Below are positions 9,439 to 23,143 of a stretch of DNA of 24,350 nt, piece after piece. The stretch covers positions 1-24,350 of IMG/VR virus record IMGVR_UViG_3300031227_000415, one strand, 5' to 3'. Source of the stretch: a virus. The notes beneath the pieces are model-generated. The model was not told where the DNA came from. It was given only the letters and a program-made list of their open reading frames with translations, and searched no databases. Position numbers and translations under genes: made by a program. Position 1 is the first letter of the stretch. Every line of letters begins with the position of its first letter.

Positions 9439-9831
9439 TTATGAGAATGTCATAGTTGGCGCAGTCAGTCCTGCGCTAACTACCGTACATTCCTCTGTCA
9501 TAGGATTGTCACCAGTCAGTGGCGCACCAGTAATCATCCCAGAACCTACGAAGTAAAACGTAGTACAGGAAATCGACACAACAATTACACCCGCGCTAAT
9601 GCACGATGCTATGAACTTAGGGGTTGCATTGAGCAAGCTAGTAACGCGCAGGCTCCAATCGAGTGTACCAAATTCCCTTGCTTTCCACGTATCCCGCGCT
9701 GCTCCCACATCTATTTCATCAGCAGTAACATCCAGCGTGAAATTCTGGAACAAAGCCAGGACATCACCGCCATCAACGTTTACAACCTTTACATCTTCTT
9801 TGGCTGTCCAACGCCCAGTAATTGCAGCCAT
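9439..9831 (-). CDS. Major tail tube protein
   Basis: The protein has 130 residues, from ATG 9831 with a near-ideal AGGAGG 7 nt upstream, consistent with high expression. Its first 43 nt overlap the end of the GT2 gene in another frame. The short beta-rich sequence has features of small tail tube proteins: WTAKEDVKVVNVDGGDV at the N-terminus, a central DTWKAREFGTLDWSLRV stretch, and a C-terminal TGDNPMTEECTVV hairpin. Its place three genes ahead of the tape measure, before the chaperone, is where the tail tube gene normally sits. A paralogue follows at 8851-9351. Which of the two forms the tube is inferred from compactness and ribosome-site strength. Confidence 0.7.
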   Translation of the reverse strand: MAAITGRWTAKEDVKVVNVDGGDVLALFQNFTLDVTADEIDVGAARDTWKAREFGTLDWSLRVTSLLNATPKFIASCISAGVIVVSISCTTFYFVGSGMITGAPLTGDNPMTEECTVVSAGLTAPTMTFS

Positions 9832-10616
9832 TTAGATTCCTCCTCATGGGCGAAGCGCAACATATCACTCCTGCCCTGGTCTTGTATTGCACTAGGAGCT
9901 TGCTGCAAGCTAGCGCTCCTGCCATGCTCAAAGGCAACGGGGCTACACCACGAATCCCACCCCGCATACCAAGCTCTCATGCAATACTGCGAATCAGAAC
10001 TATAGAGGAAGTATGTTTCATCCAGCAAGCCTATATCTTTTATCATATCTACCCTCAGCGCAACGACTGCGAACGTTACCCAAGGGCACCAATGTGGCTT
10101 CGTATAATTTGCAGTATCATGTGTAAAATGCGTAGCGCATAAACCTTCCTTTGACACAATTGATATATTGTCTGTTACAGGATACAACACCGGCCAAAGA
10201 CGTAACGTTTGTTGCGGTGTAACTTGTCCACCAGAGTGAATAACTTCACCATTGGGCATGACTAATCTTGCACCAATTATACCACATGTTTCCATCGACG
10301 CAAGGGGTTCTGCCAGTTTTTTGTCCCATTTTTCTGGACATCTTACATCAGGATTGACAATGAAGATAAATTCGTCAACACCTTTGTCCAAAAGGTGACG
10401 CAGCCCTTGGTTGATTCCTGCTGAATATCCCACGTTTTCTTCATTGCGGTGAACAGGGATTCCCACATCATCAAGCAACTTAACGGTGTCATCCGTGCTG
10501 GCGTTGTCAATGACGTGTGCTATAATAGGAAGCGAGACGTTATCAACCAAACTGTTCCACTTGCCATGCCGAATCTCTTTGGCTGAGTTGAACGTAAGGT
10601 AAACGAGACCATTCAT
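9789..10616 (-). CDS. Glycosyltransferase family 2 (GT-A fold, rhamnosyltransferase-like)
   Basis: The protein has 275 residues and starts at ATG 10616, overlapping the stop of the 56-residue gene by 4 nt. It shows the usual order of a GT2 enzyme: VIDNASTDDT (35-44), which binds the nucleotide; NVGYSAGINQGL (61-72); the metal-binding position as NPDV (88-91); and the acceptor-side block LLDETYFLYSSDSQYCMRAWYAGW split over 197-220 (pattern GxxDExFFxYxxDxDxxxR). These are features of the WbbL-type branch that adds rhamnose or similar sugars to polysaccharide. No membrane segment is seen, so it is soluble. It lies between structural genes and is co-transcribed with them, so virion proteins are possible acceptors; a host surface glycan is the alternative. 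Confidence 0.85.
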   Translation of the reverse strand: MNGLVYLTFNSAKEIRHGKWNSLVDNVSLPIIAHVIDNASTDDTVKLLDDVGIPVHRNEENVGYSAGINQGLRHLLDKGVDEFIFIVNPDVRCPEKWDKKLAEPLASMETCGIIGARLVMPNGEVIHSGGQVTPQQTLRLWPVLYPVTDNISIVSKEGLCATHFTHDTANYTKPHWCPWVTFAVVALRVDMIKDIGLLDETYFLYSSDSQYCMRAWYAGWDSWCSPVAFEHGRSASLQQAPSAIQDQGRSDMLRFAHEEESKWLQLLGVGQPKKM

Positions 10617-10783
10617 CCCTCAAGCAACACCCGCCCCTCAGCATCTTGCTTCTGAATCTTCAGCGTTTTCTTCACGCCATTGACCTCAACCGAGATTTCA
10701 TCCAAACCATGTGTGCCCCCAATCAGGGCAAGCATCGTCAGTTCATCGTCATCTGGCATGTGGTCAAGCACTAGGTTGCGCAT
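10613..10783 (-). CDS. Small hypothetical protein (56 aa)
   Basis: The ATG at 10783 is preceded by GGAGG with a 9-nt spacer. The gene overlaps the end of the GT9 gene by about 20 nt and the start of the GT2 gene by 4 nt (ATGA). The product is acidic at the N-terminus (MPDDDELTML) with a short basic beta-like middle (EVNGVKKTLKIQKQ). It was not recognised as any family. Ribosome site and double coupling to the neighbouring genes are the reasons for calling it real. Confidence 0.65.
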   Translation of the reverse strand: MRNLVLDHMPDDDELTMLALIGGTHGLDEISVEVNGVKKTLKIQKQDAEGRVLLEG

Positions 10784-11861
10784 CGTTATGCACCTCCATC
10801 ATTTTGGCTACAATGTCATCTGGCCTCAACTTCAGCATTGCTTCACACCATCTGCCTTCACAAGGTGGTATCCCTTCGATAGTATTGCATGGGCAACAAT
10901 CCATCTGCCCTTGTAAATACGAAACAGATGGATAATATTGTGTACGTTTAGCTCCATCTGTGCGCCCGAATATAGCTAACGTTGGAATGTCCAACGCTCC
11001 AGCAATGTGCATAGCAGCAGTATCTACTGTGAGCACTGCGTCCATACAATCCATAAAAGCTATGAACATTCCCAGCGTCGTTAGGTTTCCACACATATCG
11101 TGCATGTGTTCTGGTGGCCCAACTTTGGTATTATCGTCACCTACGAAAGTGAGGCGGTCATTGGGGGCACCGAGAACATACACATCACATCCGTATTCTT
11201 CTACGAGTCCCACTCCGATAATGCCAATAAACTGAGTAGGCAACGAGCGATAGTGGTCTGCCGAACCTGCTTGTAATGCGATAGCAGTTCTCCCTGGCGT
11301 AACGTATGTCTCCACCAGAACATCACGCATTGCATTATCAACTATCAAATCTGCCCCTCTTTGAGGCGGGGCTATCTGTAGGTATTCAGCGAACGTATCA
11401 GACAATTCCCGCTCAATACTTTGCCTATCCAATTCTGCCACATTCACCCAAGCATCATAATACTCACCAATATCCTGGCGTATCGGATAATCCCAAAGGT
11501 GGTCAAACCACGGGAACATAAGCGGCGAATCCGATTGCGCAGAAACAACGCCAATTTCCACATCTGGATACTTGTACTTGAAATCTTCTAAGCAAGGATT
11601 GAGTGAGATTATATCACCTATCCCGCCTGGAAAAAACAGCAGCAACCTTTTTGTTTTGCCTGGCACAAACGGGCGCAAAGGCATTTCATCGAACTTAGCA
11701 AGCGGGTCAAGCAGCGCCAACTTTTCTGCGATAATTTGTGTGGCTAGATAGGGAACTCCTTCATCAAGGATGCCAAAAGCACCTATCACTCCGCCTCTTG
11801 GAACTGGTGTTGCAAACGACTGCGACGTTACCATCTTGAACAATGGCCTGTGTGGAACCAT
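10764..11861 (-). CDS. Glycosyltransferase family 9 (heptosyltransferase-like)
   Basis: The frame is open to GTG 11864, but AGGAGG is 5 nt from the ATG at 11861 and only 2 nt from the GTG, so the ATG is chosen (365 residues). The N-terminal Rossmann half carries FFPGGIGDIISLNP (about 77-89), the GT9 opening 'GDxxxxxP'. The C-terminal half has the hallmark DTAAMHIAGALDIPTLAIFG (about 280-299), which in heptosyltransferases binds the ADP-sugar. A cysteine cluster near the end (CCPC, then two further Cys) is also common in this family. The fold is GT-B and no signal or membrane segment is present. It follows the neck-like gene by a 1-nt TGATG overlap, so it is translationally coupled to virion genes. 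Substrate and acceptor are unknown. Confidence 0.85.
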   Translation of the reverse strand: MVPHRPLFKMVTSQSFATPVPRGGVIGAFGILDEGVPYLATQIIAEKLALLDPLAKFDEMPLRPFVPGKTKRLLLFFPGGIGDIISLNPCLEDFKYKYPDVEIGVVSAQSDSPLMFPWFDHLWDYPIRQDIGEYYDAWVNVAELDRQSIERELSDTFAEYLQIAPPQRGADLIVDNAMRDVLVETYVTPGRTAIALQAGSADHYRSLPTQFIGIIGVGLVEEYGCDVYVLGAPNDRLTFVGDDNTKVGPPEHMHDMCGNLTTLGMFIAFMDCMDAVLTVDTAAMHIAGALDIPTLAIFGRTDGAKRTQYYPSVSYLQGQMDCCPCNTIEGIPPCEGRWCEAMLKLRPDDIVAKMMEVHNDAQPSA

Positions 11862-12427
11862 CACTTCCTCCTAAATCCTATGTTTTGTAACAGCCCTGTT
11901 TGGAAGTAACCGAGCAACGTCCGATAACTACTGGCAAGCCACTTGCCGAATGGCCGAGGCACCATTGCCCTTTGTTTTGCTCCCGTTTTTGTCTGGACCG
12001 TACTTGTCCACCCAGTTCTCAGAAGTTTGGGCAGCGGACCCTCTGGCGTTGTTCCGTAAGGGTCCATCTTAGCATCTGTAACCAAGTTGAATGTGGTGGA
12101 ACCGCCTTCAAACGACAAGTCAATATGCGACTGTTTATACATACCACCGCCAGACCTGCCACCTAAAAACTCCTGCGGGTTTACTATCTTTGGGTCAAAA
12201 CCACCATGCGGCCCATACATCCCGTGTCCTTCTCTAGCAAAATACGCTTGCTGCTTCTTCAAACTCTGTGTGCCCATCAGTAATTGCCGATACAAAGCCA
12301 TGCGAACTGCCTTCGTGATGTCTGCGGTAACAGCAGCGCCAAAGGGATTTGGTGAGCGCAACTTGCGAATCCGTTGCCCATATTCATTTGCTAATCTCTG
12401 CCAATCTGAAAGGTCGATAGTAATCAT
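11861..12427 (-). CDS. Putative neck/minor tail protein
   Basis: The protein has 188 residues from ATG 12427, 6 nt after the tail-terminator-like gene. It begins with a helical region (SDWQRLANEYGQRIRKL), has a Gly-rich central loop (GHGMYGPHGG, GGRSGGGMY), and ends in a basic segment with RAMVPRPFGKWLASSYR. The late 'R-x-x-x-P-R-P-F' is reminiscent of the HK97 gp10-like family that forms the neck, but the match is loose. Gene order between connector genes and tail tube fits a head-tail joining role. No enzymatic motif is present. Confidence 0.4.
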   Translation of the reverse strand: MITIDLSDWQRLANEYGQRIRKLRSPNPFGAAVTADITKAVRMALYRQLLMGTQSLKKQQAYFAREGHGMYGPHGGFDPKIVNPQEFLGGRSGGGMYKQSHIDLSFEGGSTTFNLVTDAKMDPYGTTPEGPLPKLLRTGWTSTVQTKTGAKQRAMVPRPFGKWLASSYRTLLGYFQTGLLQNIGFRRK

Positions 12428-13300: not shown

Positions 13301-13981
13301 CTAGCTCCTCTGCGCAATATAGCTGTCAGCAAGCCGAAGTATCACATTGCCTAATTCACTTTTTGCATGGGCGGCCATTACTAGTGCGGCTTTCCCATCA
13401 ACGGTATAATTTCCCGCCTTCCAACCACCAGTTAGAATTCTCTTGTTGGCAACCGATTGCATTGCTGTGTAAAACACCAAGTCCTCAAATAACTGGTCTG
13501 CAACAGTATCCAAATCCGCCAGTGATTTAGCAGTGGCGTAATATACAGCAACTTTATTGCCTGCTGTGCCTGGCTCAGGTATTAGATAAATTTCATCATT
13601 GATTATCTTCCAACTTCCGCCAAAAAACCTGTGCAATTGCGCCAACTGCCTATAGTGGATAAACAATTGCGAAGAATCATCAGCAGGCATGTTCTGTAAC
13701 AATATTTCCGTATACAAATCCGACAAAGATGAACTATAATCAGGGTGCCACGCAACATCAATTATCCACAATGCTGCCGTAGGCTTTGAATAATTAGGCT
13801 GGTCTACCACTGTAGTTAAGCAAGTAGTGCTTGTAGTCATAATCAAATTAGGGCGATAACTCGAATACCTATTCACACAAGATGTAATCAGTGTTGCTAA
13901 ATCAGCGTTACTAACATCAGATGAAGAAACGCCCCTTGCTCGAATGGTTGCAATCAACGTGCTTTGGTCAAATGCACTCAT
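13301..13981 (-). CDS. Putative head-tail connector/adaptor protein
   Basis: The product has 226 residues from ATG 13981, which overlaps the stop of the GT4 gene (ATGA). The frame is open to TTG 13999, but GGAGG lies 11 nt before the ATG. The protein is mostly helical: an N-terminal helical hairpin containing DLATLITSCVNRYSSYRP, a beta-rich insertion (WKIINDEIYLIPEPG), and C-terminal helices (DLVFYTAMQSVAN, AAHAKSELG). Helical bundle plus small beta domain is typical of gp6/gp15-like adaptor proteins that sit under the portal. It is the first structural gene after the capsid gene, the expected place. No specific family was recognised. Confidence 0.5.
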   Translation of the reverse strand: MSAFDQSTLIATIRARGVSSSDVSNADLATLITSCVNRYSSYRPNLIMTTSTTCLTTVVDQPNYSKPTAALWIIDVAWHPDYSSSLSDLYTEILLQNMPADDSSQLFIHYRQLAQLHRFFGGSWKIINDEIYLIPEPGTAGNKVAVYYATAKSLADLDTVADQLFEDLVFYTAMQSVANKRILTGGWKAGNYTVDGKAALVMAAHAKSELGNVILRLADSYIAQRS

Positions 13982-14997
13982 GTTTTTATGCGCCTCCAAG
14001 TCTCGATGATTGCCTTGCTGAACAACACCGCCATGTTGCCAACGGAGAAGGCTTTGTAATTGCCACTCACTTGTAATTCACCGTTGTACGCCTGTTTCAT
14101 CAGATGCACTAGGTGCCCAATATTCGGTTCTGCCCAACGCGCCTTCTTTGTCAGCATGTTTTCTGCGGGCACCATCTTGCTAACCATCAATCCGTAAATC
14201 CCGTTGTCATCTATGTAGTCAACAGGCCCAGACCAATTAGTAGTTATTACTGGTGTGCCACAAGCGGCAGCCTCTAGTTGCGGGAGACCAACGCCTTCTC
14301 CACGACTAGGCTGCACCAAGCAGTCTATATCATGGTAAAACTCCACCAGTTGCTCGCTTTCCCAATCTGTGTCTATGAGATGAATTCTCTCGTCATCAAT
14401 CTCCGGCAACCAGCGTGTGTTCCTAGTCTTGATTGTCAATGACACATTTCTTTTCAGTGGAAACGCTGCCGAAAACGCACGCACCAACACATCAACGCCC
14501 TTCCTCTTCGACATCACACCAACAGAGCCAAATCGAAAATCTCCCCGTTGTTTTCTGGGCCTCCCCACATCCCGCTTGAATAATTTCTCATTGTATCCAA
14601 ACGGAATAATCCGTATCCTTCGGTTGTATTTACCAAACACCTTTGCGCAATGCTGCGAAGGAACCCAAATCTCGTCTGCTCTAGTAACATATCCGCGCCA
14701 AGTCTCAGGCACATCATCCGTCTCGTACATCGTGTAAATGATTTTGTACTTCGTTCCTAGCGACGGCAATGCAGGCGGAAATCCTATTAGAACTCCCAAC
14801 CACCCCAATCTCGGCACCGACACAATCATATCCTTAATATCTTGCAGCAAATAATCTGGCACATTATTGTTAGATGCTAAAACCTCCAACACAATCCTCT
14901 TATCGTCCCGCAGCCTCCGCGCTAATTCTATTGAACCCTGCGCATACCCCGTATATTTAGCGCAAGGTATTCTCAATCTTAATGGCACCCTACCCAC
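13978..14997 (-). CDS. Glycosyltransferase family 4 (GT-B fold)
   Basis: The frame is open to GTG 15078, but the start chosen is GTG 14997 (339 residues): GGAG is 7 nt upstream, the protein then begins with the usual GT4 strand and loop (RIPCAKYTGYAQGSIELARRL), and the promoter -10 at 15041-15046 would leave the earlier start codons outside the message. The C-terminal half holds the diagnostic E-x7-E element EGVGLPQLE (234-242) within PSRGEGVGLPQLEAAACGTP, which binds the nucleotide-sugar phosphates. FGSVGVMSKRKGVDVLV precedes it as the linker strand and basic donor site. No membrane anchor is visible. The gene stands between the capsid terminator and the connector genes with its own promoter. 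Donor and acceptor are unknown. Confidence 0.85.
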   Translation of the reverse strand: MGRVPLRLRIPCAKYTGYAQGSIELARRLRDDKRIVLEVLASNNNVPDYLLQDIKDMIVSVPRLGWLGVLIGFPPALPSLGTKYKIIYTMYETDDVPETWRGYVTRADEIWVPSQHCAKVFGKYNRRIRIIPFGYNEKLFKRDVGRPRKQRGDFRFGSVGVMSKRKGVDVLVRAFSAAFPLKRNVSLTIKTRNTRWLPEIDDERIHLIDTDWESEQLVEFYHDIDCLVQPSRGEGVGLPQLEAAACGTPVITTNWSGPVDYIDDNGIYGLMVSKMVPAENMLTKKARWAEPNIGHLVHLMKQAYNGELQVSGNYKAFSVGNMAVLFSKAIIETWRRIKT

Positions 14998-15040
14998 AAA
15001 ACATCTCCATTGTCCATGGATGTTAACAATAGTCCACATC

Positions 15041-15068
15041 ATTATACCAGATACATGAAAAAAAGCAA
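15041..15068 (-). promoter_or_regulatory. Extended -10 promoter TTGCTT-16-TGG-TATAAT
   Basis: Minus strand: TTGCTT (15068-15063), then 16 bp, then a perfect TATAAT (15046-15041) directly preceded by TGG, giving the extended -10 form. Transcription would start near 15034, right after the terminator of the capsid unit, and would cover the GT4 gene from GTG 14997 and the connector genes behind it. Confidence 0.65.
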
Positions 15069-15098
15069 GGGTTGTCACACCCCGCCTGCATTCAACAC

Positions 15099-15156: not shown

Positions 15157-16785
15157 TCAGAACGGTTCCGTGCCCTGAGTGCCCGATGCAATTGCCATCG
15201 TAGCTAGACCATCACCCTTAAGAACCTCCATTGCGTTACGCGAACTGGTGCTTCTCATCAACCTGTTCTGCGTAGCGTCGCTATCTGGCGGCGAAATATA
15301 AAGCGGGATGTACGGACTGAACACCGCTGCGGCCCTCATCCAGCTATCGGGCTTGAAGCCAAAGAGCAGCGTATTGGCAGTGAACCACGTGGCCTCGTAT
15401 ACGGTATACGTGTTGGCGAACGTGCCTGCGCGAGTAAGGCCGACACCAAACTGATTGTCACCAGGAACACCATCACTGGTCCAATTCTGGTTCATGCTCT
15501 TCAGGAGCGCGAGACTAATGGTGTCACCGATTATCCAGTTTGCGCCTTCGTAGACCTTGGCAGAGATATCAGAGCTTGTGCGGTTTACCCACAGCGACAG
15601 ACCCTGATTGTACCACTCACCCTGAGATTCCCAATCATCGGGCTTGGCAGTACCATACTCATTTGTGGCTGCCGTTGCGCCAGCCCTCAGCATTTCAAGG
15701 AACGTAGCATTGATTTCCCTAGCGATTTGGTCAACAGATGCAGAGAGCAATTCCTGTTCTGCATCCAACCCAAACGCGGCCTTCATGTCCTGCATCAGAA
15801 CAGAAGTGATGTCGTAGTAAATCGACTTCTCTACTGCGGTGACATCGGTCGAACTGAATTCCAGGGCTATCTGACTCTTGGTATCACCCTCATCGTGTTC
15901 GCTCCAGGTTGAGTCAAATGAACCGGAATCGTCCATATCCGACCCGCTGTAGGTGCCGGACGCATACTCAAAGTCTAGGAAATAAACTCTTCCCGTTGGC
16001 TGCGTTAGTGGCTGCACTGACTGTATTTCGTAAGGGATGAGCTTCGGAAAAATTGAGCGCACAAGCGGAAGCAAGTATGGAATTGTAGTTCCAAGCGCAG
16101 TGCTTGTAGTAACTGTCTCCTGCATCTGGAACCCCTGGCGAGTACAAGCATGGAAATAGTTCGGGTAATGCGTGTGATAGTTTTCGAGGATGGTGCGCAT
16201 ATTATGCGCTGGGTTAGACGGCATCGCTTCTCCAGTATCCTCGATACCTTCCATCAGACCACGGAAAACTTCGTCCACAGTTTCTGGCCTGTCACGGCCA
16301 TCAGAAGCACCGTTGTAGTTTGGCAGCCAGAATTTCTCACGTTCGTTACCCGTGATTATTCCGATGCCTCCGTACTGGTCCTTCACGAAGAGAGCCTTCA
16401 GCTGCGGCCCCACAGTCAGGACGACTTCCGCAACTTCCTCAGCAGTTGTGCATTTGTCCAGATGCGGCTTAATCAGACTGGCAACCTTTTCATTGCCATC
16501 ACTGAGTGATGCAGTTGCCGACGCCTTAGCGTCAACCAGTGCGCGAGCCGCATCAACAGCAGCGTGCGTAGCGAGAATCTGGTCAGTAAGATTGCTTTGC
16601 ACCTGCTTTTGTGACGCAGCAGCAACCCGCTCTGCGATAGCAGCCTCATCTATCTGATACTCCTTCGGCTCAATGGCGACTTCTCCAACTACGGGTGTAT
16701 CAACCACTATCGGAACTTCTGGCGTTGGAGTGTTTTCAGCCACTTCTTCTACAACTTCTTCTACAACTTCAGTTTCACCATCCAT
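15157..16785 (-). CDS. Major capsid protein precursor from internal in-frame start
   Basis: This is nested in the fusion gene: ATG 16785 (codon 297) has a perfect AGGAGG 8 nt upstream. It would give a 542-residue precursor, close in length to T4 gp23 (521). The product starts with an acidic segment ([13 protein letters not shown]), then a helical scaffold-like region, then the capsid domain. A capsid needs hundreds of copies but only a few proteases, so separate strong initiation here makes functional sense, as for lambda Nu3 inside gene C. The alternative is that only the full fusion is made. That the internal start is used is inferred from the ribosome site and domain boundary. Confidence 0.65.
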
Positions 16786-17673
16786 TATGGTGGCCTCCTC
16801 TTGTTCAAGTTGTTCTTGACTGTCTTTTTGGAACTTGACAGTTTGGGTTTTAGCAGCACCTCTATCTACGAGGTCACAACCATCCCAAATGTAATTACGA
16901 ATTTCATCGTAATCTTTACTATCTGGACTATCATCTGCTTTTATGATTTTGCGGTCACCATAACCGATTATGGACCATTCCGTTTGCACGTCGTATTCCC
17001 AAAGCGTCATTATGTCTTTTCCTGCGCTAGTAGGGATAAGTGCTCCCTCAAGATAGACATTATCACCTTGGATAAATACTGCGTCATAACGGACTACTAT
17101 ATTGCTAGGACCTCCACCGGATAAAAATCCTGGGTGCCCATCCTGGCCTGTAAATCTCCCCGCCCTCATCATGCGATTGACACGGGGTAGATTTTTCTCA
17201 AACTGCTTGCGCGGGTATGACCTTCGATTCTTGTTGATTTTATCAACTTGCGCCACAATTGCGCGGAACTTCACCGAGCCATCACTTGGCGCATCTTCGA
17301 TGTCATCAATCTTTTCTACCTTGCCAACAAACGTGTCCTCGATACGCTCTCTGCCATCGTTTTTCAATTCATCGACACGAGCCTCTGCGAGCGTGAGCAA
17401 CGACACATCTTCACTTTCCAAAACCTGGAGAAGAATTTCTTCTGCACCATCAACGTCTATAGCGTTAGCGATTGCTTCCTCTATGGCGTCGTTTTCAACG
17501 CTATCAGTTTTGCGCTGCATTTTTGCGCCACACTTAGCACACTTCATAGCTGTACAAGGAACACCAGTATCATGTTCCTTTTCATAGCCGCATTCTGGAC
17601 AAACACAAATCCCGCCGTTGCCAGCACCTGGATTTGGCGAAGCGGCTTCATCTACGTTTTCAGCATCTGGCAT
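15157..17673 (-). CDS. Prohead protease-major capsid protein fusion
   Basis: This is a single open frame of 838 residues, ATG 17673 with GGGGAG about 7 nt upstream. Residues 22-50 form a zinc ribbon (CVCPECG ... [10 protein letters not shown]). Residues about 110-285 look like a serine prohead protease of the XkdF/T4 gp21 kind: DGHPGF with a likely catalytic His180, [11 protein letters not shown], and EWSIIGYG with a likely nucleophile Ser234. After an acidic linker with VVEE repeats (300-312) and a helical scaffold-like segment (about 340-430), residues about 515-838 resemble a T4 gp23-type capsid protein, with [21 protein letters not shown] as the clearest element, split over 548-568. Protease and capsid are usually separate genes. 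A strong internal start at 16785 lies exactly between them. Head maturation would cut the scaffold part off. Confidence 0.85.
16794..16799 (-). promoter_or_regulatory. Internal Shine-Dalgarno AGGAGG for capsid start
   Basis: AGGAGG inside the coding sequence (encoding part of QEEAT), followed by an 8-nt spacer and ATG GAT GGT in the same frame. It matches the anti-SD consensus fully and is stronger than the site of the full-length gene. Confidence 0.7.
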
Positions 17674-17817: not shown

Positions 17818-19539
17818 TTACAAAACAGTGGCAACACTCCATCCATCTGCACCACGGTTGTATTCTTTTGACCATATCCAGTATGTATCTGTGTCAAAAC
17901 TATCACATAATGGAATCATTGTCAAGGGGTTGTCCTCACTTTTGTAAAGAATTTTTCGCAATTCTTCCCGCCTCTCCTCCATCGGCAATGAAGTTATGTC
18001 TTCTCCGTCGAGATATGCGATGTCATAACAGTGTGCAATTGTTGGTATATCCATCAGATTATCACTAAGCATGTGTGCGCCAGGCATTGGTTCCCCATCT
18101 TTTTCTGCGGAGATTACACACTCTATAATGCAAGGCATTTCTAACTGTGCAACTGCCTCGCAAATGATTGGGAATTCATGCGCTCGATTGCGCCCTCCAT
18201 TACCGATGAATATAGATGTGTTGTGTTTTCCTCGATGTATTTGTGCGTCTACTCCCTCTGGTATTGCGCAAACAACATTGTCTTCTAGTGCTGACAGAAC
18301 ATCTTCTTCCGATTCCCATGTTACGCTATCAGATATTTCTGTGGGCGGCAGCGGCTGCCCTATTCTGATAGCTTCAGTATAGAGGAACCAGAATGGCCTA
18401 ATCATATCATCAAGTATTTCACTCTCGTATCTTACTAAATGGTGTCCATGCAAATACCTCAAGCCATCAGCCAAGTCAATAGTAGTTTGCGGTAGCACTG
18501 CGAGGCCATCAGGAAAAGCAATATTGCCGATGGTTTCCAATCTGTCTTTCAGCAGCGTATTCTTGCAATTGCGGTCATTTATTTGCAGCACATCAAAAAT
18601 CTGCATTACTTCATCAGCCCAGATAGCGAGAAAAATTGCGCTCTGCGGCTCCTCCATTTCTGCCAATACATCAACTGCATCAATAAATTCGGTTTCCCGT
18701 TCCCCGTCCTGATTGTAGATGACAATGTTGTCTTCTGTTTTGTGTATCTGATAGATTGCATAGTCTTTGGGAATTGGTTGTGCAATAACAGGGAATTTAT
18801 AGGCACCCTGCTTGCGAAAATAACCGATTGGAATGTGTTCACCTATGGTCATATCGGTTTGTGGATACTCTACACAAGGCTGGTCTTTGCGAATCAGCCA
18901 CAACTCATAAGCGGGTATCCGTGAGCGACCCTCAATATCATCGCTCCCAATGATGTTGAAATCTATGTCTGCGTCTTCCAAAGCTGCTATAGCATCAGGG
19001 TGCTTTGCAACAATTGCAGCAATACCATCATCCTCGTACAATATGCTGCCAGTAATTGATGCAGCCTCATCTGACAACTGAATAACTGCGGGCAATTCAT
19101 CCCACACAGGATTATGTGCTTCGTTCTTGTCCCAATCCTCTGTGCTAATGTGTGGCTGTCCAACTAGTGCCAATAGTCTTGCAGCAAATTTGTGCAATTC
19201 TTCAGATTTCAATTCATGGGCGGCGTCATGCACCTTCAACGCTTCAGAAAGCGAAGGCAGCAATGACGTTGCAGCATCCTTCGTGCCTGCGTGGAATTCT
19301 CCATTGTGGCTGGCGCAATGAGCATTGGCCTGCTTTGTGCCCTCGGCATTTCCCCAGCCATTGCTGAAACGATAGCGTATTGAGACGGGCTTGCTCTTGT
19401 CCTTCCACCAACAGACCACGCGCTCAATTGGTTTATCGTTCACCTTTCCGCTTTTTACGGTAGCGCAGCGGTCACTTCCAGAAGAACTTGCGATACGGCA
19501 AGTGTGCATTCCAGCGAGGGGATCGCTTACTTTTCTCAT
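17818..19539 (-). CDS. Tandem degenerate ATP-dependent DNA ligase-like protein
   Basis: The protein has 573 residues; ATG 19539 overlaps the portal stop by 4 nt and GGAGG lies 9 nt upstream. Residues 418-573 follow the layout of a ligase nucleotidyltransferase domain: QIHRGKHNTSIFIGNGG after motif I, HEFPII, then YDIAYLDGEDITSLPMEERREEL (505-527; motif IV) and GADGWSVA (563-570; motif V). The catalytic residues are lost: motif I reads AIPEGVDA with Ile426 where lysine belongs, motif V ends in Ala570 instead of Lys, and the motif III Glu is replaced. Residues 248-340 are a second, more diverged copy (DYAIYQIHK; IFDVLQINDRN; LKDRLETI). The protein stops at motif V, so the OB-fold is absent. The N-terminal 240 residues were not recognised. 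Genomic position suggests a head or portal-associated structural role. A functional ligase is unlikely. Confidence 0.6.
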   Translation of the reverse strand: MRKVSDPLAGMHTCRIASSSGSDRCATVKSGKVNDKPIERVVCWWKDKSKPVSIRYRFSNGWGNAEGTKQANAHCASHNGEFHAGTKDAATSLLPSLSEALKVHDAAHELKSEELHKFAARLLALVGQPHISTEDWDKNEAHNPVWDELPAVIQLSDEAASITGSILYEDDGIAAIVAKHPDAIAALEDADIDFNIIGSDDIEGRSRIPAYELWLIRKDQPCVEYPQTDMTIGEHIPIGYFRKQGAYKFPVIAQPIPKDYAIYQIHKTEDNIVIYNQDGERETEFIDAVDVLAEMEEPQSAIFLAIWADEVMQIFDVLQINDRNCKNTLLKDRLETIGNIAFPDGLAVLPQTTIDLADGLRYLHGHHLVRYESEILDDMIRPFWFLYTEAIRIGQPLPPTEISDSVTWESEEDVLSALEDNVVCAIPEGVDAQIHRGKHNTSIFIGNGGRNRAHEFPIICEAVAQLEMPCIIECVISAEKDGEPMPGAHMLSDNLMDIPTIAHCYDIAYLDGEDITSLPMEERREELRKILYKSEDNPLTMIPLCDSFDTDTYWIWSKEYNRGADGWSVATVL

Positions 19540-21011
19540 TGATTGTTACCTCCATTAGTTGGCGGTTCAGCAACTATGTTTGCGGCCCACAACGCTATGT
19601 CCTCATCTGACAGTTGCAGAATCTTCTTGCCAATGATTTCCTCAGGAACACCCATCTTATGCCACCCAGATGCAGCTTGTGCGTTGTTGACTGTAATCTT
19701 GGCAACGGCTTCGGCAGTCTTCGATACTATTTTTGGATACACCAGTTGGTAAGAAGCCTTACTTGGGTCAATCCCACTAAGCAACATCTGCACTCCGAAT
19801 ATTTGTCGAGCACCCTTTTCATGCGTCTGTTGTGCGCGACAGCCAAGCCATGTAAACGCTTCCTTTGTTTCCTCTGGTGTCTTATCAACAAAAGACCTCT
19901 GGCCCACCCTCATATTCAAGTAGGACATCGGAACACCCAACCCAGCCAACACACGGTTCAGACTCCATGAAATATCATTGATGTTCTCTAATGCAGCGGT
20001 TCCCGAACGAAGGTTATCAACACCGCCCTCAATAATTTTACCATCCCTAGTGTAAATCATTGCGACATAGAAATCGGTATCAACATCTACTGGGTTCTCT
20101 TGGAAGTTCACGGAAAAGCGGGTATTAGTGCTGTCGTATGGAGTGATAACATCCTTCTCCATGTTTTCCCGATATTTCTTAAACTTTTCCTCAACTGCTT
20201 TAGGGTCCGCATCGATTGGAATAGGTATTTTGTGAATGCGTGTATCCCACGCCCTTGTCAGCCGTGCAATAGCCAAACTATCTTCTTGAGCTTGCAATCT
20301 TTTCCATTGAGGAATTACGGGGGCCATGTGGGGTTCCGCATATTTGCCGCCAGGATTGTTGCCAAATTGCCAGTGAACAATCTGATAAGCATCCCACGCG
20401 GCTACGGCAGTACCTATATCATCTCTTTGCACATAAGCAGGTGCCTCTGCACTTTGTGGCATTTTCATATATACGTCAGGGTCTCCAGAAGCCAAGCGGC
20501 CAAACTTATCCGTATTGATTTCTATTTGCCACGGCTGTGGAAACTGCTTTATCCGTGAAATTGGTTGCAGCCTGTCATCACCATGCGGAACTAACTCTGC
20601 GAAATGGTTGCCCGCTTTCACAGCCATGCGGATAATGTTCCATGTCTGTTCCATCAACCCCGTCTCATCAGCAGTGGCTTGCATCAGCGCTAGTGCTTTC
20701 TTTTGCAACGGGCTTACTTCATCATCTTTATCTTTGACAAGCTCTATCTTGAAGCCCCAAAAGTTTTCCTCTGGAAAATAGCAAGCAGCACTGGCGATAA
20801 TATCAAGACCCCTAGCAATCAGTCCATCCCCCGTATCCATACTGTCGAGGTCTTTGAACACAGAAGTCCTTGCGTGCGTTCTCCCCCACGGCACCTTCAA
20901 CTCCATAGCGTTGCGACCAATGACGCCTGTACCGGCAGGAACAATCTTTGGCTTTTCTTTTCCAATCAATCTAGCCCAAGCATCTCTGGTTCGCGTCAAT
21001 AAGTTAGCCAT
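19536..21011 (-). CDS. Portal protein (T4 gp20-like)
   Basis: The protein has 491 residues, starting at ATG 21011, 6 nt after the large terminase. The portal forms the dodecameric ring at the capsid vertex through which DNA is packaged. EDSLAIARLTRAWDTRIHKI (243-262) matches the T4 gp20 type pattern 'EDaLviyRltRAPerRvf'. The segment LNRVLAGLGVPMSYLN (351-366), preceded by a DNLRSGT loop, matches the gp20 region with 'LyrALrvPvSRL'. The C-terminus is helical and then acidic/Asn-rich (EPPTNGGNNQ). Length is near that of T4 gp20 (524). Gene order terminase-portal-protease-capsid is standard. Confidence 0.85.
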   Translation of the reverse strand: MANLLTRTRDAWARLIGKEKPKIVPAGTGVIGRNAMELKVPWGRTHARTSVFKDLDSMDTGDGLIARGLDIIASAACYFPEENFWGFKIELVKDKDDEVSPLQKKALALMQATADETGLMEQTWNIIRMAVKAGNHFAELVPHGDDRLQPISRIKQFPQPWQIEINTDKFGRLASGDPDVYMKMPQSAEAPAYVQRDDIGTAVAAWDAYQIVHWQFGNNPGGKYAEPHMAPVIPQWKRLQAQEDSLAIARLTRAWDTRIHKIPIPIDADPKAVEEKFKKYRENMEKDVITPYDSTNTRFSVNFQENPVDVDTDFYVAMIYTRDGKIIEGGVDNLRSGTAALENINDISWSLNRVLAGLGVPMSYLNMRVGQRSFVDKTPEETKEAFTWLGCRAQQTHEKGARQIFGVQMLLSGIDPSKASYQLVYPKIVSKTAEAVAKITVNNAQAASGWHKMGVPEEIIGKKILQLSDEDIALWAANIVAEPPTNGGNNQ

Positions 21012-21017
21012 ATAGCA

Positions 21018-22586
21018 TCACCCAATTCGTCGCCTGCGTCGTGCTATTGCAACAGGCACATCTCCTAGTTGGCGAGACGGGTCTGCCGCAGACGACGCAA
21101 GCCATAACGCCATAATCATGTCTGTTGTCTTTGTTTCATAAGGAAAGCCCAACATTTCCTCAATTAAATCACATATGTCACAACTATGCAATGGGTCTGT
21201 GTGGTCTCCAGCGAATGGAAAGTCCCATTGTTCTGCCCGCATCTGCGCAACAAGCCCAGGAAGGCCGATTTCTGGGTTCCATTTTTGCGAGCCTGTAAAA
21301 AAACCTTCCAACGGAAGTTGAATATCTTGAGCATACTTGAATTCTGCTATTACTCTAATAAGACTGAGCATGGCTTCCTGTGTTGCATTATTTTCTACAC
21401 AAATATTTGCGAAAGCATGTCGGAGGTGCATTTCCACCACAGTTTCTGCCACAAATTCTGAAGTCTCTCTCATCCGATGAGCTTCCAATATTACTTTGCG
21501 GTCATCTGCCATAACACCAATTGCGAAGATGGATGAAAAACTTCCAGTGTTTTTTAGCGAAGCGGCTGGGTCAAGCCCACAGTATCGAGCCACAATCGGC
21601 ACCCTAGATTGCCCCATGTGTAGGTCTTCAGCCTTACAAGCATCAACTACGGCTTGCGTCCACCAAGTACGTTGCTGGCGCAACCCTTTCAAAAGGAATT
21701 GCTGGTCAAAAGCCTCGTCTCCAATTTCCTTGCGCCTTTTCTCCAGTGCTTCCAACGGCCAACGTTCAGGCCATAATGATTCTCCAGCGTCGTTAATGGC
21801 GGGGTTCTTCCACGCAAACCACATCTCGTTACCGACTAAATCCTCAATCAAATCATCTGGCGACCACGCTGAACCGATATAAAGATGGCTCTGCCCACCG
21901 ATATTTAACCAATCAGCATAGAACAACCGTTTTACCTTCGGCAGGCGCGCTGGCTCCATTATTGTCTCTTTGGGACCAATAATGTCATCAAAGAGAATAA
22001 GGTCAGTACGTCCACCTGTAGCAGTAGCCGTTACGCCATATCCCTCAAGGCTAGCATCTTTTATTCCCAGATTTGCTTCTTCGTCTTTGAGAACGTCTAT
22101 GGCAGTGCCAGACCATTTACCGTTGGGGTCAGGTACTAAATTAGGAAACACTCCATGCAATTCATCATTAGCTCTTATGTTCTTTTCAACTTGCGTTATG
22201 AACTTGACAGCATTAGTATCATTGTTTGAGACGATTTTAATCCTAAGGCTAGGATTGACGCCAAAAACAAAAAGCACCAAACAAAGCATTGTTTCGGTTT
22301 TGCCGTGCTCTCTCGGCCCCTCAATAACACCATTTGTGATTTGCTCACCATCTCGGAGTGTGGGTTTGACTTCCTCGCCATCTACATAAACCGTCTTGCC
22401 CTCCAACAACGGCAATACCATAGACAACGCCAACATGTACCACTCTTTGTGGTGTTTACCAACCTTCCAGGGCTTCCCCTTCTCATCCTTCATCACATAC
22501 TCTGCGAAGCGAACGATGTCTTCCCGCTTCTCGCGCAAGTCAGCGTATCTGATAGCATCTTGTATTGTGTTGCCTAAAACACCCAT
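21018..22586 (-). CDS. terL: Terminase large subunit
   Basis: The frame is open to TTG 22589, but ATG 22586 is preceded by GAGG at 7 nt, so 522 residues. The N-terminal ATPase has a Walker A GPREHGKT (about 90-97) and a Walker B LILFDD (about 196-201) with the catalytic acidic residue in its usual place; SNNDTNA (120-126) is the adenine-side strand. The C-terminal RNase H-like nuclease shows its acidic residues in order: GLDPA (Asp about 339), CVEN (Glu about 398) and KTTDMIMALWLA (Asp about 489). The motor translocates DNA through the portal and cuts the concatemer. Start and stop of the small subunit overlap it by 1 nt (TGATG), so the two are translationally coupled. The C-terminal RRRRR is basic. 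Confidence 0.95.
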   Translation of the reverse strand: MGVLGNTIQDAIRYADLREKREDIVRFAEYVMKDEKGKPWKVGKHHKEWYMLALSMVLPLLEGKTVYVDGEEVKPTLRDGEQITNGVIEGPREHGKTETMLCLVLFVFGVNPSLRIKIVSNNDTNAVKFITQVEKNIRANDELHGVFPNLVPDPNGKWSGTAIDVLKDEEANLGIKDASLEGYGVTATATGGRTDLILFDDIIGPKETIMEPARLPKVKRLFYADWLNIGGQSHLYIGSAWSPDDLIEDLVGNEMWFAWKNPAINDAGESLWPERWPLEALEKRRKEIGDEAFDQQFLLKGLRQQRTWWTQAVVDACKAEDLHMGQSRVPIVARYCGLDPAASLKNTGSFSSIFAIGVMADDRKVILEAHRMRETSEFVAETVVEMHLRHAFANICVENNATQEAMLSLIRVIAEFKYAQDIQLPLEGFFTGSQKWNPEIGLPGLVAQMRAEQWDFPFAGDHTDPLHSCDICDLIEEMLGFPYETKTTDMIMALWLASSAADPSRQLGDVPVAIARRRRRIG

Positions 22587-23143
22587 CAAGCATCCTCAAC
22601 CGTAAATTCGGCGTCAATAGTTTCTGCCCCTGGCGCAGGCAACCCCATAGACGTAGCCATCTCATTCATTCTCTTCAGCATTGTGGCTACTTCTTTGCGT
22701 TCTTCTGTAGTACCTTCCTGCATTATCTGGATGAAAACATTCTGTTGGCGAGGCATCATACCACTCAGGTCTCCGGTCAACTCACTCATAAGACGAACTG
22801 CCTTGAGATAGGTTTCCGTTAGCTTTGCGGCTTTCAGCCATTGCCCATCGTTTCCTAGTTCACTCACTCCATCCCGCAACATCCCAGCTATGTTGTCAAC
22901 CTCGGTGAGGACAAACGATTTCTTAGAGCGAAGTGTGCCAGCAAGCATTTCTTGTGCGCGTTCAACAGCAAGCTGCGCGATAGCGTCTTTGTTTTCACGA
23001 ATGAACACTTTGACATCGTGTTCTGTACAATTCAGGACATCATCATCCTTCAATGTGTTGACAATATCTACACAACTTGTACCCATTGCACACATTTCTA
23101 ACACTTTTGTGGCTGTTGAGCTGCCACTTGCTAGCAAAAGCAT
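22586..23143 (-). CDS. Putative terminase small subunit
   Basis: GAGGAG is 6 nt from ATG 23143 and 3 nt from an earlier GTG (23146); the ATG is chosen, giving 185 residues. The N-terminal part looks like a helix-turn-helix (KVLEMCAMGTSCVDIVNTL followed by a second helix DVKVFIRENKDAI). The rest is helical, with an oligomerisation-type segment (KAAKLTETYLKAVRLMSEL) and an acidic tail (DAEFTVEDA). Small terminases bind the packaging site and load the large subunit. Assignment is based mainly on its place directly before terL with a 1-nt overlap and on the HTH-plus-helices plan; no specific family was recognised. Confidence 0.65.
   Translation of the reverse strand: MLLLASGSSTATKVLEMCAMGTSCVDIVNTLKDDDVLNCTEHDVKVFIRENKDAIAQLAVERAQEMLAGTLRSKKSFVLTEVDNIAGMLRDGVSELGNDGQWLKAAKLTETYLKAVRLMSELTGDLSGMMPRQQNVFIQIMQEGTTEERKEVATMLKRMNEMATSMGLPAPGAETIDAEFTVEDA

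Follow-up and report, generated by a model that had tools for sequence, protein, structure and literature searches.

The gene that follows the portal gene in the viral DNA analysed here (the window, a stretch of 24,350 nucleotides) encodes a 573-residue protein, termed here the pseudo-ligase, in which profile comparison reveals homology to ATP-dependent DNA ligases in two regions. Both regions lack the lysine that is adenylated in ligases and the motif I arginine. On balance, we think that the product serves head assembly in a T4-like phage. It would reuse two non-adenylatable ligase domains for non-catalytic binding, would be translated together with the portal protein, and would be targeted to the head by an N-terminal Cys/His module.

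Gene organization and relatives

The pseudo-ligase gene lies in a T4-type head cluster, in which a gp20-type portal, a gp23-type capsid protein, and a gp21-type protease stand side by side according to Pfam and PHROGs. The genes are as follows.

21018..22589, minus strand: terminase large subunit (phrog_38, E 9.9e-59)
19536..21011, minus strand: portal gene of the T4 gp20 type (PF07230, E 1.7e-19)
17818..19539, minus strand: pseudo-ligase gene, 573 aa, with an N-terminal module and two ligase-like domains
15157..17673, minus strand: protease-scaffold-major capsid fusion of the T4 type (PF07068, E 2.5e-33; phrog_207, E 1.4e-11)

The start codon of the pseudo-ligase gene is located inside the stop codon of the portal gene (ATGA, 19536-19539). 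This 4-nt overlap and the reading frame with its residues are as an earlier sequence-only reading had described them, and the overlap is present in the window and in both relatives, L002 and L003. The protease-scaffold-capsid fusion gene stands downstream of the pseudo-ligase gene, and the terminase gene stands just upstream of the portal gene. The phrog_207 match of the fusion is to a head maturation protease, and a Peptidase_S77 match in the cluster was found under its Pfam cut-off. The fusion joins a protease, a scaffold-like region, and a T4-type capsid protein in one protein of 838 aa (15157-17673) that is also present in L003 with 71% identity.

Homologues of the pseudo-ligase were found in three IMG/VR contigs, namely L001, a near copy (100%), L002 (73%), and L003 (75%). 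The family comprises only three different sequences, which come from three metagenomes. L002 and L003 have the same gene order around the pseudo-ligase as the window, and the L003 copy sits in a contig of 70.5 kb that is possibly incomplete. Neither the protein nor the family alignment brought up relatives beyond these three contigs, and queries with the portal and with the terminase had the same outcome. Apart from one chance match, a DNA pattern covering the QIHRG region likewise returned just the three known contigs. The same gene layout was not found in isolate phages by tblastn, where weak matches were ordinary ligases or chance. A penicillin-binding protein that matched a portal-piece query in the scan of genome contigs was rejected as false.

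Several other genes were observed in the window and its relatives. Three glycosyltransferase genes of the GT2, GT9 heptosyltransferase-like, and GT4 types (9789-10616, 10764-11864, and 13978-15078) lie among the head and tail genes of the window, and all three are also present in L003/L018. The GT4 gene of L018 (12582-14804) has an intein-like insert with Hint and LAGLIDADG matches directly after GEG; the GT4 gene of the window has no insert. The 70.5-kb relative contains two TnpB/OrfB_IS605-type genes (L016 11233-12339; L018 6851-7972), one of them within the tail cluster, and a pilin-like DUF1559 protein (L016 17729-18427) that gives a hint at the host. The DUF1559 pilin-like type is common in Planctomycetes and Armatimonadota. 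Positions 2-1279, at the edge of the window, encode two concanavalin A-like (Laminin_G_3) stretches, possibly of a tail fibre or receptor-binding protein. In Burkholderia phage BcepIL02, a putative DNA ligase whose lysine motif is intact (L153 2803-3591) adjoins the terminase gene on the opposite strand.

Two ligase-like domains

The pseudo-ligase is divided into the following parts.

19279..19521, minus strand: Cys/His module, residues 7-87, common with prohead proteases (HMM, AlphaFold2, BFVD)
19240..19251, minus strand: L-S-E-A, residues 97-100, a candidate gp21-type site (cut after [LI]-x-E) with a conserved motif
18835..19278, minus strand: residues 88-235, a helical stretch and a conserved middle region with no detectable relatives
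18364..18822, minus strand: domain A, residues 240-392, ligase nucleotidyltransferase-like, non-catalytic (hhalign against viral ligases)
17860..18327, minus strand: domain B, residues 405-560, ligase nucleotidyltransferase-like, non-catalytic (PF01068, hhalign)
17821..17859, minus strand: residues 561-573, an unconserved tail

The ligase-like character that had been assigned to residues 418-573 is borne out. Pfam DNA_ligase_A_M (PF01068) matches residues 429-536 with 27.2 bits, above the cut-off of 26.2 (E 3.6e-6), and the two other contigs also exceed the cut-off with 28-29 bits. DNA ligases rank first for the pseudo-ligase in a phmmer search of the PDB (3gde, E 1.4e-5). An alignment of the three phage sequences was used as the hhalign query against 14 cellular ligases, which gave 97.3% and E 2e-11 for domain B, with none of 400 column shuffles as good; the hhalign E-values are single comparisons, for which the shuffles serve as a control. 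The best matches of domain B in hhalign are among these cellular ligases.

The second ligase-like region, which had been placed at residues 248-340, corresponds to domain A. Its likeness to the 14 cellular ligases is borderline (E 0.004, equalled by 1 of 400 shuffles), but its likeness to viral ligases is strong (95%, E 3.6e-8), with a score of 54 that none of 400 shuffles reached, the best scoring 27. These viral ligases were fetched from viral contigs by a ligase query independent of the pseudo-ligase. Two domains were also reported in L002 by a ligase HMM alone. The middle region revealed no similarity to ligases (90-262), S78 proteases, or domain B in profile comparison. A full-length AlphaFold2 model built on the three-sequence alignment had a mean pLDDT of 32, and neither ligase fold was seen in it.

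The sequence-only reading had regarded the two domains as a duplicated fold, which was not established. In hhalign, viral ligases are a better match for domain A than domain B is. In a tree built from the two domains and 23 ligases, A groups with the viral ligases (support 62-68), and both domains lie near these (77-83). This support is too weak to decide between one duplication and two acquisitions.

Loss of active-site residues

When aligned with viral ligases, the three phages have I-P-E/D-G-V/I-D/A (domain B) and P-K/N-D/N/S-Y-A/E-I/M (domain A) in place of motif I (K-x-D-G-x-R). The lysine that is adenylated in ligases is replaced by I426 in B and by P257 in A, both invariant in 3/3 phages, and the motif I arginine is replaced by D/A/D in B and by I/M/M in A. 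Domain B has no lysine at the I426 position or at up to eight residues before it in any of the three phages. The absence of the nucleophilic lysine (Ile426) and of the motif I arginine (Asp431), first noticed in one domain of the window, thus extends to all three phages and to both domains, and none of the three homologues beside portal genes keeps the lysine.

The other motifs are altered to different degrees. The glutamate of motif III had been called missing from domain B; this stands under HMMER and MAFFT, which give V475 or a gap, but not under hhalign, which aligns the invariant E473. The motif III region of domain A is shortened and contains no Glu. Motif IV (E-G-x-x-x-K) is replaced in domain B by YWxWxK558, in which K558 is invariant. 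The loss of the motif V lysines is correct insofar as K-x-K is absent from the tail of the pseudo-ligase. In contrast, A570, which had been cited for this loss, and GADG, which had been cited as a retained scaffold motif, fall in the C-terminal tail; this part is unconserved (23-31% identity between the window and relatives) and is therefore unusable as evidence, which leaves the motif V claim weak. An OB domain gave no Pfam match at E up to 1, and the about 13 residues left after domain B leave no room for an OB fold.

In established ligase chemistry, the motif residues lost here are needed for the reaction starting from ATP. Because the residues of motifs I, IV, and V are lost and no OB domain is present, the pseudo-ligase is very unlikely, by this comparison, to perform a ligase reaction from ATP. 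The residues that define DNA ligases were looked for and are absent, which places the protein outside the DNA ligase family in a functional sense. The protein might still be an enzyme, either a nucleotidyltransferase whose nucleophile is another residue or one acting on pre-adenylated DNA. All three phages keep K438, K558, and E473, which would suit such an activity, as would the fact that the motif I lysine is dispensable as a nucleophile when pre-adenylated ends are sealed. This explanation is highly improbable in view of the combined loss of the motif I lysine and arginine, the motif IV Glu-Gly, and the motif V lysines, together with a domain A lacking the motif III region and the missing OB domain.

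Purifying selection

The pseudo-ligase gene has a dN/dS of 0.07-0.13 over its whole length among the three phages (73-75% identity); these ratios are approximate because some NG86 synonymous distances come close to saturation. The slowest-changing parts are the N-terminal module and the middle region (81-89% identity), and domains A and B change somewhat faster (62-79%). Purifying selection over the whole gene indicates that the pseudo-ligase is kept as a dead enzyme. Chance similarity and a frame artefact were ruled out by the shuffles and by dN/dS. A decaying, functionless remnant of a ligase gene would account for the lost active-site residues and the fast-changing tail, but the reading frame is intact in three phages under this selection, with a conserved start overlap and N-terminal module; decay is thus extremely unlikely and was rejected.

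N-terminal Cys/His module

Residues 7-87 contain the motif H12-x-C14 ... W62 ... H74-C75-x2-H78-x-G80-x-F82. The likeness of this part to a known pattern led to a DNA-pattern scan of viral contigs. The scan for A-x-A-H-C-x-x-H-x-G-x-F found 101 loci, against 1-2 expected from a rough base-frequency estimate. The motif closes the same stretch of ~75 residues in 98 ORFs, of which 3 belong to the pseudo-ligase family and about 95 are others. The consensus of the stretch is H-x-C-R ... GK-x-Y ... QAYRY ... W ... ARAHC-x-x-H-x-G-x-F. An HMM of 78 module segments gave 39-42 bits, with 39 bits for the window protein. Because the motif itself had been used for fetching, the part before it was scored alone and reached 16-18 bits, whereas none of 6000 shuffles exceeded 10.

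Most of the scanned module carriers are head maturation proteases according to PHROGs. Among 57 carriers scanned for domains, 31 have Peptidase_S78 and 3 have XkdF, and single carriers are a ClpP-type protease, a portal, a capsid, and a Mu F-type protein. The ~80-residue module (loci L022-L122) is found at either end of proteins and also alone as ORFs of 80-100 aa. No Pfam name was found for it. AlphaFold2 with 65 sequences confidently predicted a strand-strand-strand-strand-helix-strand arrangement (mean pLDDT 81.6), whose best fold match in BFVD is annotated 'Prohead protease' (probability 1.00, TM 0.62, E 5.7e-3). Comparison with PDB folds gave nothing under E 0.15 and no Z above 4.7, which does not imply a new fold. 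The invariant residues H12, C14, H74/C75, and H78 could be ligands for zinc. An alignment in which modules and ligases were combined was set aside, as MAFFT had misplaced the ligases. The pseudo-ligase itself has no match to a protease domain (S78, XkdF, ClpP, or S77) in Pfam, PHROGs, or NCBIfam. The occurrence of the module on several unrelated kinds of head protease and on other head proteins makes it worth a name of its own, and it may be a general prohead-targeting part.

The module that is common with prohead proteases ties the pseudo-ligase to head assembly. A cytoplasmic factor that shares only the operon is a different explanation, in which the protein would act as a decoy or regulator on nicked DNA or on the host ligase, in packaging or defence, and would never enter the head. 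Its ligase ancestry is compatible with this role. Moreover, the pseudo-ligase gene is the only ligase-like gene of either type detected in the 70.5-kb relative, a contig that may be incomplete, so the protein could act on a host enzyme. Two features favour the head instead, namely the prohead-protease module and the start that overlaps the portal gene in three phages, and a purely cytoplasmic role is regarded as unlikely.

Candidate prohead cleavage site

The prohead protease of T4, gp21, cleaves after L/I-x-E (PMC9026906). The sequence L-S/T-E-A shortly after the module is conserved in 3/3 phages. Two conserved [LI]xE[AG] sites are present in the pseudo-ligase, against 0.35 expected, and the second lies inside domain B. 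The protease-capsid polyprotein has three conserved [LI]xE[AG] sites against 0.58 expected; one of them (E97) precedes the protease part and another (E475) the capsid part. The motif is short, and the conserved L-S-E99|A100 is suggestive of a T4 gp21-type cleavage site. The earlier proposal of a head part gains support in that the protease-type module and the conserved L-x-E|A site link the protein to the head; the protein may also be part of the virion.

Proposed role in head assembly

The pseudo-ligase would be translated together with the portal protein, as the 4-nt overlap in three phages suggests, and its N-terminal module would bring it into the growing prohead. The prohead protease may then cut at L-S-E99|A100 and free the rest of the protein inside the head. 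The two dead ligase domains would remain as a non-catalytic clamp, most likely on DNA, either close to the portal or within the head; here, DNA binding is judged from ancestry only. A more specific version is put forward tentatively. In it, a ligase turned structural head protein forms a tandem non-adenylatable clamp, which the module targets to the prohead and the protease releases; the clamp would grip DNA (its ends or nicks) at the portal, or would enter the cell along with the genome. For DNA binding, ligase domains depend mostly on accompanying DBD and OB domains, and both are absent from the pseudo-ligase, which counts against a DNA clamp.

As the main rival, the protein could belong to the prohead core or scaffold, with its ligase folds acting solely as protein-protein scaffolds that do not touch DNA. 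The pseudo-ligase lies between portal and protease, where T4 has gp67 and gp68, and the head module fits such a protein as well. T4 core proteins are small and helical, whereas the pseudo-ligase is a multidomain protein of 573 aa, and it revealed no similarity to known core proteins in Pfam or PHROGs. This rival is considered less likely. If the head-assembly reading with a reused ligase is true, it shows, in a form open to testing, how an enzyme of replication was domesticated into a component of the head, and possibly a device that holds DNA at the portal.

Comparison with known systems

Virion parts made from reused enzymes are known. No description of a lysine-less ligase fold in a phage head gene cluster was found in the literature covered, which was limited to open-licence papers. 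By its sequence, the pseudo-ligase is classed as a pseudo-enzyme that belongs to the covalent nucleotidyltransferase superfamily and stands in a new setting, and as neither a functional DNA ligase nor a prohead protease.

Both domains align with ATP-dependent ligases (PF01068) at QIH, at the FD(I/V)L(Y/Q) block, and at the R-containing helix. Unlike these ligases, the pseudo-ligase has its ligase-like domains in tandem, lacks the catalytic residues of motifs I, IV, and V (the nucleophilic lysine, the arginine, the Glu-Gly pair, and the lysines) as well as an OB domain, stands among head genes, and carries a head module. Prohead serine proteases (PF04586 Peptidase_S78, PF14550 XkdF) share with it the module at residues 7-87 and the place between the portal and capsid genes. 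In contrast to these proteases, its module is fused to dead ligase domains with no detected protease domain, and the phage's own protease is of the T4 type and fused to the capsid protein.

The T4 internal proteins Alt and IPI-III and the T4 core proteins gp67 and gp68 have an N-terminal targeting part that is removed by the prohead protease after L/I-x-E (PMC9026906). The targeting and cleavage proposed for the pseudo-ligase resemble this pathway. The two differ in that the pseudo-ligase has no sequence similarity to the T4 proteins and carries a folded targeting module of ~80 residues instead of a 10-residue peptide.
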